Assembly (NCBI RefSeq): GCF_001904655.1
Contig: NZ_MRCC01000001.1
Location: forward strand, 124,001-188,000
DNA: 64,000 nucleotides
Direction of reading: 5' to 3'
DNA from: Chroogloeocystis siderophila 5.2 s.c.1
GTDB taxonomy: Bacteria > Cyanobacteriota > Cyanobacteriia > Cyanobacteriales > Chroococcidiopsidaceae
Position 1 is the stretch's first letter. Each line of letters opens with the position of its first letter. Below the pieces are notes generated by a model, which did no database searches, was not told the origin of the DNA, and worked only from the letters and a program-made list of their open reading frames with translations. The position numbers and the translations under genes are program-made. Of the stretch, positions 18,809 through 23,903 are shown in pieces.

Positions 18809-19010
18809 TCAAATATAAGACTCCTGTAACTCATCTAATAAATTTACTGGTAAGCAAACTGTAAAGCAGCTACCGCGTCCTAGTTCGGAAGTCACAGTGA
18901 TGTCTCCTCCGTGTAACCGTGCTAATTTACGCGATAGTGCTAAGCCTAAGCCCGTACCTTTGTATTTACGATTCAAGTCACTATCAAGCTTGGCAAACAT
19001 TTTCAACAAT
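18809..19010 (-). pseudogene. Histidine kinase C-terminal fragment
   Basis: Only the last about 65 residues of a kinase ATPase domain remain: [20 protein letters not shown] (G2 box) and [21 protein letters not shown]. The rest of the HATPase domain and the phosphoacceptor domain are absent. The 5' end overlaps the preceding fragment in a different frame at a probable deletion junction. Confidence 0.8.
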
Positions 19011-19358
19011 CAATTGTTCTAGGGCTAATTCTTCTTTTCCTGCCTCAATGCGCGAAGATGTCAGAACCACAACAGGAATAATGCGCGTGCGAAGATCGGA
19101 TTTAATTTTTTGCAGAACTTCTAAGCCGTCAACTTTTGGGATTTTAGGGTCGAGAAGAATCACCCTAGGTCTATCATCCATCGAGCGATGTGCATAATTG
19201 CTAGTACAAAAAATAAAGTCGAGTGCTTCTGCACCATCGCGGACTACCTCAATATGATTGGTGAGGTTACTACTTTTAAGTGAATGAAGCGTCAGTTCTG
19301 CATCACACGGATTATCTTCAACAAGCAAAATTTTCACCGCATTATCTCGCATCGACAT
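18984..19358 (-). pseudogene. Truncated response regulator fused to kinase sequence
   Basis: The receiver domain starts normally ([20 protein letters not shown], phosphoacceptor region [12 protein letters not shown]) and runs to [11 protein letters not shown]. Instead of the expected last beta-alpha unit with its Lys-Pro, the frame continues as [19 protein letters not shown], which reads like the dimerisation-domain segment of a histidine kinase, and stops. The Rcp1-type regulator has therefore lost its C-terminal third by fusion. Confidence 0.75.
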
Positions 19359-19385
19359 CGCCTCACAAAGTAAAGTAGAAAGTTG

Positions 19386-20045
19386 CACCGCGATCAACTA
19401 TTTCAATGCGTTTGATAGTAAATTCATCCAGACTTGCTTAATAAGTGCTGGATCGGCTTCACACGCTGCTAGCGCTTCGATTGTGATTTCAACGTGCCGA
19501 TTTTTTTTTGCTCCTCGGCTAAATCGATTAATACTTGAGGCACGATCATACTCGGTTCAACGCGTTGTTTTTTTTAAGGGCGCGCGACTCAATCGCGAAA
19601 ATGTCAGCAGATCGTCAATTAAGCATACCATTTGTTGCGCGTTAGCTTATACCAATTGCAAATAACGTTGCGCCTCTGGAGTTAATTGTGCTGTGCAATC
19701 TTTTAAGAGAATCCGCGAAAAGCCATGAATCGTGCGTAAAGGGGCGCGGAGATCGTGCGGTATCGAATAGGAAGGCTTCTCTTTGTTGGCTAATTCAAGT
19801 TCCGCCGCGCGATTTTGCAAGTCGGCGTTGAGATGGCTAATTTCGGCTTCAGCACGTTTGCGTTCAGCGAGTTCGATTTGTGCTTGTTGGTAAAGTTCAG
19901 ATTAATGGCGATCGCAAGTTGTGTTGCGAGTTGCTAAAGAAGATTGATTTCGATCAGTTGCCATTGGCGCGGTTGCGAACAATGATTAGCAACGAGTAAT
20001 CCCCAAAGTTGTTCTTCTTTTAAAATCGAGACGACATGGTATTAC
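19386..20045 (-). pseudogene. GAF-histidine kinase relic
   Basis: Reading across frames gives a GAF-domain end (EEQLWGLLVANHCSQPRQW, then LLQQLATQLAIAI), a coiled linker (ELAERKRAEAEISHLNADLQ), the DHp box SIPHDLRAPLRTIHGFSRIL with its His, DDLLTFSRLSRA and finally KQVWMNLLSNALK followed by a stop where the HATPase domain should continue. At least one in-frame TAA (after RYLQLV) and several frameshifts are present. It resembles phytochrome-like or GAF sensor kinases. Confidence 0.75.
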
Positions 20046-20158: not shown

Positions 20159-23100
20159 CTAGCTTAAAACAGCAATCACGCCACCCATTGCGGCTGCAAT
20201 TGCCGAAACAACCGCCGTTGCAAACAGCCACCAAGCTGCACTTCCTGCCGCTTTGCGAGTTTCTTCCGCTTGTCGTTGCGCTTGAATTTTGACTTGTTCG
20301 AGCCGGCGTTGTGCTTCTTGTTGAACGCGTTCTGCACGTTGCAGCACATTGTTCCGCGCTCCTTCGATTTGGTCGATAATTCGGTTAGCATCGGCTTCCG
20401 AAATATCCTCGCGCGAACTCATAATCGCGACAAGCGTTTCGCGGTTAAACGAACCTAAGCGATCGCGAATCGCTTCAAAACCCGCTTGCGGATCGTCAAA
20501 CAGCTTACGTACATCCTTTTTGATGCCATCGTAGTTGAGTTCAGGACGATCAAGTGAATTCAAGTAATTGCGGATTCTGCCAAACACGCCATCAATGACG
20601 TCTTGAATACGGCGTTGAATTGCCCGTACTTGTTCTACGAATTGATCGCGGACCGCCAGAACTTGATCGACAGTGCGCGCCGCTTCTTCTTCCGACATAT
20701 CACCGCGCGCTTGTAGAAGTGCGATAATCGTCGAACGGTCAAAGTGTGATAGGCGATCGCTTAAACTTTCTACTCCTGCGCGTGGATCGTTGAGCAAGAG
20801 GTATAGTTCTCGCTTAATCGCTTCGGGATTCAACTCGTCTTTACCTGTGCTGCGTAGATAATCTTCCAAGGTTTGTTGGAAGTTCTGTACACTTGCTTGC
20901 GTACGTGCTGCCAAGCGGCGCGGTGCACGAATAATGTCGCGAATCGAAACTTGAAGAGAATCGATAATTTGATTTACTTGGTCTTCGCTTAAGTCTTGGC
21001 GTTGACTCAACAGCTTCACCAACGTATCGCGATCGACCTGGGCGAGGCGCCGTCTGAGCGCTGCTGCACCCTCTTGCGGATTGTTAAACAAGCGAGCAAA
21101 GTCGCGCTGAATGCCTTCAGGGTTAAGTTCCTCTTTCCCTGTATTGCGCAGGTATTCGGCGATCGTCTGCGTTACCGAATCGTACTGCTCTTTGGCTTTG
21201 CCTGCAATCATTTGCGGTGCGTGCGTAATGTCATGCCACGTTCCTTCAACTTGTTGCAGAATTTGGTTAATCTGTTCTGCGGATAAGTCATCACGCTGAT
21301 TCAACAGCTGAACTAGCGTATTGCGGTTAAAACGCGATAACCGTGCTTGAACTGCGGCGGTTCCAGCTTGCGGATCTTCCAGCAGTTTTTGCAAATCGCG
21401 CTTGATTCCTTCCGGATTAAGTTCGTCTTTACCTGTATTACGCAGATAAGACTCTAAATTAATCCACAGCGTTTCCGCTTGTTGTTTAGCTTGATCCGCA
21501 ACGTTTTGCGACTCGAATAAAACTTGCTGGCGTACTTCTTCTACTCCATTAAGGATCGTTTCTGCTTCCTCTGGTGTGATGTCGTTACGTTGTAGCAGAA
21601 TTTGTCTTAAAGAGTCGCGTTCTAACCGCGCCAGGCGTAAGGTGAGTAATTCGTGATCTGCTTCGTCATCCTCCAGCAATGGCTTAAAATCTTGCTGCAT
21701 TTTTTCAGGCGTCAGATCTGCCTTACTTGTTACGAGTAGATAACTTTCGACACGTCGCTGTAACTCTTGAACCGCTTCGCGTTCTTCTTCGGCTCGCACA
21801 ACCGTCAAAACTTCTTGCCGAATGCTTTCTAGCTGATCGGCAATCTCTTGAATTTTGGCTTGCGTAAAGACACCGCGTTGTTGTAGTAGATCTGCAAAAT
21901 CCTGGCGCGAAATCTGCTCAAGCTGACGCCGTACGGTTCCTGGATCGGCAGATGGATCGTACAAAACGTCACGAAATTCTTGATTAACTTTTTCGCGGTT
22001 AATCTGCCAAGAATAAGTATTTAGTAAGTAGTTTTCAACATCTGCCCGAATCGTATTGTACGGTACAGCAGCACTTTTTATTCCTACTTGCTCCGCAACT
22101 TTTTCAGCTTGATCGGTTGCTTTATCTCGTGCTTGCGAAAGCGAACTCAAGATTTTCTCAACATCCAAATCTGATAGATCCGCTCTCCCCATAACAAGCC
22201 CCATTAAGGTTGTCAAACCTTGCTGAAGCGACATTTGGAAAGATCCTGCACCTTTGGTATCTGAGCCTTGCTTTCCTTTGTCCGAACGTACTTCCGCAAT
22301 CAGTTGCTCTACCTTGGCGCTTAATTCGTCCGTTTTGGCTTGCCCAGGTTGTACCGACTTGAGGTAGTCTATCAACTCACCCATACGGTCTTTTTGGGGT
22401 GCTTGCTGCGATACGACTTGTCGCCATACACTTTCGAGTTGATCGACGATGCGATTAATATCGCGCCGTGAAAGATCAGTACGACTGCTGACTAACTCTA
22501 CAAATTTCTGGCGATCGATGTTCCGCAGATCTTCGGTACCCGCAATTTCTTTTAGCTGCGGATCGTTCAACAAATTTTCAAATTCCTTACGGATATTGGA
22601 CAAGTTCAATTCAGGAGGACGAAGCGTGTCCAAATAATCTTCGATGTTTTCCCGAATTGTCATTGGGTCGATCGCGCTACCGAGTTCGCGACGTACCGCC
22701 GCTGCCGCTGCTTCAGCTGTGGCTACGACTTGGTTGTTAACCGCCTTCGCCCCCAATGCAGCTGTTGCTGTGCCAATAATTGCTTGCAATCCTGATGTTG
22801 CGGTATTGACAACTGAGCCGACTAGGGAACCTACAGTAGTGGAACTAAACCAAAACAGGAGTAAAAAATATGCTCCCCAAATGACAAGCCCTAGAATCGC
22901 GCCTAGTCCTACGTCTATAGTTAACAAGCTTAGTTTTACTGCCAAAAGACAAGCAATGAATAAAGCAACACTAACTGTGACTAGTGTCCAAATTCCTACC
23001 GCAGTACCAATCTTACGAATCGTTCCTCCTACACTACCACCATCGCCACTCGATGAGTCTGAGTCTGAGTCTGAGGAACGCCCTAAGAAAGAAATGCCAG

Positions 23101-23299
23101 CAGCAACCGAAAGGTTTGTTAACACTAACTGAATAGCAAAGGCAAGAATAATACCAGAAATTAAAGCAACAAAGAATCTCGGTCCTGAGAAAACTAGTGC
23201 TGCTTCGGCTGGCGTTACCGCCCCTGGAGTGACTGGCACCTGCGCTATCCAAAATAGCGCTTGGTGTGGCTCCAGTAGTATTTCCGTATTCTCAAACAT
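20159..23299 (-). CDS. Large membrane protein with seven ~98-residue repeats
   Basis: Protein of 1046 aa. N-terminal hydrophobic segments lie at about 41-60, 103-122 and 127-150, with a Ser/Asp/Gly-rich loop (residues 75-90) between the first two. A further TM helix ends the protein (1022-1045). Between them lie seven homologous units starting near residues 219, 421, 517, 615, 712, 811 and 909. The consensus is: YLRNTGKDELNPEGIKRDL, then LLxDPQAG, RLxxFNRxTLVxLLxQR, DLSEExxNxIxDQVE. Units 2-7 follow each other at 96-99 residues. The region is helical with coiled-coil spacers (300-410, 975-1015). I recognise it as a conserved cyanobacterial protein, sometimes mislabelled as a transporter, but no function is known to me. 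A terminator follows. Confidence 0.85.
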   Translation of the reverse strand: MFENTEILLEPHQALFWIAQVPVTPGAVTPAEAALVFSGPRFFVALISGIILAFAIQLVLTNLSVAAGISFLGRSSDSDSDSSSGDGGSVGGTIRKIGTAVGIWTLVTVSVALFIACLLAVKLSLLTIDVGLGAILGLVIWGAYFLLLFWFSSTTVGSLVGSVVNTATSGLQAIIGTATAALGAKAVNNQVVATAEAAAAAVRRELGSAIDPMTIRENIEDYLDTLRPPELNLSNIRKEFENLLNDPQLKEIAGTEDLRNIDRQKFVELVSSRTDLSRRDINRIVDQLESVWRQVVSQQAPQKDRMGELIDYLKSVQPGQAKTDELSAKVEQLIAEVRSDKGKQGSDTKGAGSFQMSLQQGLTTLMGLVMGRADLSDLDVEKILSSLSQARDKATDQAEKVAEQVGIKSAAVPYNTIRADVENYLLNTYSWQINREKVNQEFRDVLYDPSADPGTVRRQLEQISRQDFADLLQQRGVFTQAKIQEIADQLESIRQEVLTVVRAEEEREAVQELQRRVESYLLVTSKADLTPEKMQQDFKPLLEDDEADHELLTLRLARLERDSLRQILLQRNDITPEEAETILNGVEEVRQQVLFESQNVADQAKQQAETLWINLESYLRNTGKDELNPEGIKRDLQKLLEDPQAGTAAVQARLSRFNRNTLVQLLNQRDDLSAEQINQILQQVEGTWHDITHAPQMIAGKAKEQYDSVTQTIAEYLRNTGKEELNPEGIQRDFARLFNNPQEGAAALRRRLAQVDRDTLVKLLSQRQDLSEDQVNQIIDSLQVSIRDIIRAPRRLAARTQASVQNFQQTLEDYLRSTGKDELNPEAIKRELYLLLNDPRAGVESLSDRLSHFDRSTIIALLQARGDMSEEEAARTVDQVLAVRDQFVEQVRAIQRRIQDVIDGVFGRIRNYLNSLDRPELNYDGIKKDVRKLFDDPQAGFEAIRDRLGSFNRETLVAIMSSREDISEADANRIIDQIEGARNNVLQRAERVQQEAQRRLEQVKIQAQRQAEETRKAAGSAAWWLFATAVVSAIAAAMGGVIAVLS

Positions 23300-23705: not shown

Positions 23706-23903
23706 ATGGATAGCAACACAAATATACCTCCAGTCGCTAAAGAGTATAACGGCAAAGACCGCAACGCTTTTCTGTTTGGCTGGAATCCACAAGCTGAAAT
23801 CTGGAATGGACGCTTAGCAATGATTGGCTTTCTCGCCTATTTACTCTGGGATTTAGCCGGTTATAGCGTTCTGCGTGATGTATTACACTTAATGACCTAC
23901 TAA
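23706..23903 (+). CDS. High-light-inducible (HLIP/CAB-like) protein
   Basis: Protein of 65 aa. The single membrane helix carries the chlorophyll-binding signature AEIWNGRLAMIGFLAYL (30-46), with E31, N34 and R36 as in LHC-type helices. HLIPs bind chlorophyll and carotenoid, associate with photosystem assembly intermediates and are induced by high light and other stress. They form dimers. The N-terminal 25 residues are soluble. Preceded by TTCGGAGCAAAATT, a usable ribosome site (GGAG) 8 nt before the ATG. Confidence 0.93.
   Translation: MDSNTNIPPVAKEYNGKDRNAFLFGWNPQAEIWNGRLAMIGFLAYLLWDLAGYSVLRDVLHLMTY

Follow-up and report, generated by a model that had tools for sequence, protein, structure and literature searches.

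The question raised by this locus is how a 1046-residue protein carrying a long array of repeated units is held at a membrane, and what such an array could do there. In the window, that is, the whole stretch of 64,000 nucleotides that was analysed, the open reading frame at 20159-23299 (minus strand) is confirmed, as are the membrane segments described at both protein ends in the initial annotation, which was made by a model from the letters alone. TM1-3 are N-terminal and TM4 is C-terminal, and all four are clearly hydrophobic throughout the family. The features are as follows; KD peaks are hydropathy peaks over 19 residues, averaged over the family.

20159..23299, minus strand: gene for the 1046-aa protein, A-type paralogue; open reading frame, with relatives of 47-92% identity in many cyanobacteria
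23090..23176, minus strand: TM1, residues 42-70; family-mean KD peak 2.5, homologous to TM1 of a short four-TM family
22928..22996, minus strand: TM2, residues 102-124; family-mean KD peak 2.4, homology to the short four-TM family
22841..22909, minus strand: TM3, residues 131-153; family-mean KD peak 2.2, homology to the short four-TM family
22685..22840, minus strand: conserved Gly/Ala/Ser/Thr-rich segment following TM3, residues 154-205; family-mean KD peak 1.0, low model confidence, probably interfacial and not a TM
22370..22645, minus strand: unit 1, residues 219-310; unit profile, 65 bits
22040..22369, minus strand: unit 2, residues 311-420, degenerate and containing a variable insert of low confidence; half-unit match at 363-405 and alignment
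21752..22039, minus strand: unit 3, residues 421-516; unit profile, pLDDT about 75-88 in the full-length model
21458..21751, minus strand: unit 4, residues 517-614; unit profile and full-length model
21164..21457, minus strand: unit 5, residues 615-712; unit profile and two-unit model of mean pLDDT 85.9
20870..21163, minus strand: unit 6, residues 713-810; unit profile, two-unit model, length conservation
20576..20869, minus strand: unit 7, residues 811-908; unit profile, length conservation
20282..20575, minus strand: unit 8, residues 909-1006; unit profile, length conservation, long helix modelled as continuous with TM4
20165..20233, minus strand: TM4, residues 1023-1045; family-mean KD peak 1.9, hhalign match to TM4 of the short family
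23706..23903, plus strand: HLIP gene, 65 aa, divergent from the array gene; Pfam PF00504, E 2.7e-5

The array (residues 219-1006) is composed of eight units of about 98 residues. Seven homologous units had initially been recognised; their homology holds, while their number has to be raised by the degenerate unit at residues 311-420. With a profile of the last four units, hmmsearch retrieves those starting at residues 219, 421, 517, 615, 713, 811 and 909 with i-Evalues of 2e-13 to 3e-50, and unit pairs reach Smith-Waterman z values of 8-37 against shuffled sequences. The same profile gives an extra half-unit match at residues 363-405 (E 1.4e-6), residues 311-407 align to the other units as a degenerate unit carrying a Gly/Ser/Lys-rich insert, and the equivalent of this unit 2 in the paralogue is matched with an E of 8.4e-8. 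Units 6, 7 and 8 are each exactly 98 residues long in all aligned family members, and the distance from unit 3 to TM4 is 601.7±1.3 residues (rounded, 602); unit 2 ranges from 91 to 146 residues and absorbs most of the variation in array length. The array is highly charged and devoid of Cys, which suits a soluble domain, and it is net acidic (105 K/R vs 135 D/E). No model in Pfam or NCBIfam describes the unit.

A recent internal duplication had been proposed because three of the units, numbered 5-7 here, appeared nearly identical. This is true of their YLRNTGK-ELNPE block and not of the whole units, which are mutually 37-46% identical at the protein level. Units 5, 6 and 7 are closer to the same positions in other proteins, being 74, 82 and 80% identical to those of the Aliterella orthologue (L047) and 66, 69 and 59% identical to those of the paralogue in the same genome, which is 56% identical overall. 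When 367 units of 46 proteins are placed in one tree, each position among units 1-4 and 6-8 is a single clade spanning both paralogue subfamilies, as is unit 5 apart from three sequences (weak support). No tandem repeat was found in the DNA of the gene, whose best repeated block measures 54 nt (65-78%). Recent internal duplication is thus ruled out by the unit phylogeny, the protein identities and the absence of DNA tandem repeats, and, as judged from the monophyly of the unit positions together with that absence, the eight-unit array is older than the split of the two subfamilies. The number of units in other cyanobacterial relatives also runs contrary to a recent duplication, as it is nearly constant; among the exceptions are a ten-unit protein of 1231 aa (L082), a shorter one of 955 aa (L091), frame-broken contigs and a fragment with three units (L085).

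The unit profile detects the array in 42 of 292 sampled cyanobacterial genomes, with one further marginal match. Carriers include Gloeocapsopsis, Nostoc, Aliterella, Microcoleus vaginatus, Coleofasciculus and Symplocastrum, and their median genome size is 6.0 Mb. Two paralogues per genome are common, A (the gene at 20159-23299) and B. All matches in a scan of genome contigs, limited by a sequence pattern, are cyanobacterial, and searches of plasmid, phage and IMG/VR sequences with the full protein returned no relatives. This is an uncharacterised family, carried by larger-genome cyanobacteria, several soil genera included. One very diverged member of 922 aa (L086, 6711-9477) has the peptide VLPQADSI repeated within its array.

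How the array is anchored is indicated by short cyanobacterial proteins of four TMs (215-250 aa), in which TM1-3 and TM4 are homologous to those of the array protein and come in the same order, whereas their TM3-TM4 loop averages about 46 residues and contains no repeat units. The short and array families co-occur in 37 of 42 carriers (a raw count, not corrected for phylogeny). A profile of residues 30-215 retrieved short proteins of about 215-290 aa, and a reverse phmmer search from one short four-TM protein matched the long proteins (best E 2.6e-8). TM1-3 (residues 40-163) align with the short family at 97% hhalign probability (E 1e-10), and TM4 (residues 1010-1045) aligns separately, in order, with the TM4 of that family (hhalign E 6.5e-4). 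As a control, the short-family TM4 profile was run against 6,411 ORFs of the loci examined; the top matches outside the short family are the C-termini of the array family, although for individual sequences this TM4 match is weak (best E 0.92). There are also natural proteins with few units. A 370-aa relative in a sister genome (L166, 2959-4071) has unit 1 and part of unit 2, about 1.5 units in all, between its TM1-3 and TM4, and aligns end to end with the array protein; another form has 390 aa. In the genome studied here, a third relative (L088, G000:C6:162621-163109) is broken by in-frame stops, the 370-aa version of the sister genome being intact.

Because TM1-3 and TM4 are collinear with one short four-TM family, the comparison of these sequences gives good support to the view that the array occupies the TM3-TM4 loop of one small four-TM domain, so that both of its ends are expected to sit in a single membrane. 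With about 870 residues between TM3 and TM4, the protein is not an ordinary member of the short family but a relative that bears an array. It is unusual for a protein architecture to combine one small membrane domain with an array of near-invariant length set between two of its TM helices. An even number of TMs places the N- and C-termini on the same side of the membrane and the TM3-TM4 array on the opposite side. Near-membrane Lys/Arg are commoner on the array side (2.8 in loop 1-2 and 6.2 in the 30 residues before TM4) than on the other (1.7 at the N-terminus, 1.1 in loop 2-3 and about 0 at the C-terminus), which favours a cytoplasmic array. This positive-inside bias is weak, and the short four-TM family has a weak bias in the reverse direction; the cytoplasmic orientation of the array is therefore no more than probable.

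Structure prediction yields a confident, all-helical AlphaFold model for two units, made from 135 unit pairs and without strands (mean pLDDT 85.9, pTM 0.50), and no transporter fold in the repeat region. The full-length model has a mean pLDDT of 58.7, units 3-4 being good. In both models the unit would have a compact helical fold of three short helices and a helix of about 45 residues common to the next unit; in the full-length model, residues 968-1045 form a single helix, of low to moderate confidence, in which the last long helix runs into TM4. The geometry between units is uncertain (pTM 0.50 and 0.33), so that the array can be called no more than a putative stiff rod.

No convincing match to this fold was found. 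With the two-unit model, the best Foldseek E is 0.54, and the best VIA-align match is a designed filament (Z 6.7, 99 residues, rmsd 4.3), followed by unrelated helical proteins; with the full-length model, the best structural alignment is to a designed helical repeat (Z 7.7, 92 residues, rmsd 3.0), and Z values up to 7.7 fall in the range that the tool deems uninformative for helical models. When PDB sequences are searched with the protein and with the unit profile, the best match is to a chain named H12 over a short helical stretch (E 1.8e-4), the remainder having E values of at least 0.076; annexin repeats reach E 0.38-0.57. Spectrin-type rods are alike in having tandem, all-helical units of about 100 residues with a long helix entering the next unit, but they have three long helices where the array units have three short ones and one long one, and the matches are weak (plectin spectrin repeats, Z 5.0 and rmsd 6.1 over 141 residues; alpha-spectrin, E 2.8). 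The repeat unit is not represented in Pfam or NCBIfam and has no convincing PDB counterpart.

The gene neighbourhood points to stress. Divergent from the array gene lies a gene for a chlorophyll-binding, high-light-inducible protein (HLIP), whose 65 aa are below the 80-aa threshold of the ORF list. At 38 of the 65 A-type loci for which sufficient sequence is available, between one and four tandem HLIP genes lie divergently within 1.5 kb upstream; none do so at 14 B-type loci. With about seven HLIP-like sequences in the 5.0 Mb genome, chance proximity is estimated at roughly 0.2% per locus. As the linked loci are related, this linkage is to be counted as conserved synteny and not as 38 events, and all of them may share one origin. 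HLIPs are well established as stress-induced thylakoid pigment-binding proteins (for example, PMC12142464). A search for the HLR1 (RpaB) light element between the array and HLIP genes gave a best match with three mismatches, and Rfam found nothing in the neighbourhood. Some B-type or divergent members (L063, L069, L074, L077, L084, L091 and L097) lie in stress-type islands with combinations of YflT, BON, CAAD, DUF2382, catalase, two uncharacterised families and a short four-TM gene. Together, the A and B contexts suggest a link to stress, and to light stress for A. Beside the array gene in Nostoc, the HLIP gene is duplicated in tandem.

CAAD genes occur near some B-type genes. The membrane-shaping CurT/CURT1 and CAAD-domain proteins are small and without a repeat array, no sequence similarity to the array protein was found, and PF14159 (CAAD) is absent from the Pfam matches of the array protein, being present only in B-type gene neighbours. 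For AncM, considered as a possible relative, PMC13353191 gives no sequence basis for comparison.

One reading that would bring these results together, plausible although we put it somewhat short of even, is that of a stress-linked, membrane-anchored helical scaffold of fixed length, with its array in the TM3-TM4 loop. The loop of a small four-TM protein would have been expanded into eight units before the subfamilies split, and the array would lie on the cytoplasmic face of the thylakoid or plasma membrane. According to the models, the helix of about 45 residues would run from each unit into the next and, for the last one, into TM4, and a stiff scaffold or spacer of this kind could hold partners or shape the membrane under light or desiccation stress. 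The array gene and the HLIP gene divergent from it could be co-expressed, although proximity is no proof of this, and thanks to their linkage a part in light or drying stress is open to direct testing. A narrower version, which we hold to be distinctly unlikely, is that a new helical repeat fold acts as a ruler of fixed length on the thylakoid or plasma membrane under such stress; if so, the 98-residue pitch and the 602-residue distance would be kept to set a physical spacing, for instance towards phycobilisomes or a neighbouring membrane.

Alternatively, the four-TM domain could be the working part, a PhnA-like or YrzE-like channel, transporter or receptor, with the array as its regulatory or anchoring cytoplasmic domain. 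The domain is strongly conserved in the array family and more widespread than the array, with relatives on proteobacterial plasmids; the distant tblastn matches on plasmids that are related to the short family carry the annotation 'PhnA-like' or 'YrzE family', which is the only source of the name YrzE here. However, TM1, TM3 and TM4 of the array family contain no charged residue and the short family has no known function. Neither two short four-TM proteins nor the TM region of the long protein match Pfam or NCBIfam, and nothing on function was found in the literature on PhnA-like/YrzE proteins and candidate Anabaena HLIP loci. We regard this alternative as possible, if improbable.

A protective role at the membrane surface, where the array would shield or remodel membranes during drying in the manner of apolipoproteins or LEA proteins, appears unlikely. 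The array has many charged helices rich in Gln and Arg, the neighbour genes are of stress type, and the PDB sequence search gave a weak profile similarity to apolipoprotein E (E 0.076). That match is nevertheless not significant, and the compact modelled units of exact length are unlike disordered LEA proteins.

The scaffold reading retains part of the initial annotation, in which a repeat rod anchored at both ends could act as a scaffold or bridge membranes: a membrane-anchored helical scaffold fits the evidence, but bridging by the two anchored ends, for example between thylakoid and plasma membrane, is very unlikely. Although there are membrane segments at both ends with a long helical array between them, they align in order with one four-TM protein, and the natural form of about 1.5 units keeps all four TMs while being too short for spanning two membranes. 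The array loop could still touch a second membrane.

A role for the array as a membrane tether of the nucleoid, acting by means of HU-like helices, is extremely improbable, since the Bac_DNA_binding (PF00216) match, although above the gathering score (E 6.6e-6), is best over positions 3-37 of the 90 in the profile, the first helical hairpin of HU, and the array is net acidic. The resemblance to HU/IHF is thus limited to a helix-turn-helix stretch like the N-terminal hairpin; the array, which is tandem and membrane-anchored, lacks the beta-saddle and the DNA-binding arms, as the two-unit model has no strands, and HU-type DNA binding was rejected on these grounds.

Two further observations concern the genes on the other side of the array gene and its relatives. 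At 18836-20035 (minus strand) lie the remains of histidine kinase genes, with a response-regulator ORF between them, apparently a decayed gene; the fragments match two kinases that are intact in Gloeocapsopsis crepidinum (L033), where they lie downstream of the orthologue. Finally, an apparent ferrochelatase gene, a gene for a protein of about 177 aa and a 431-aa lyase-like gene form one block, found downstream of the B gene in Gloeocapsopsis (L067, L068) and of the A gene in one Nostoc (L037), which is perhaps the trace of an ancestral tandem arrangement of A and B.
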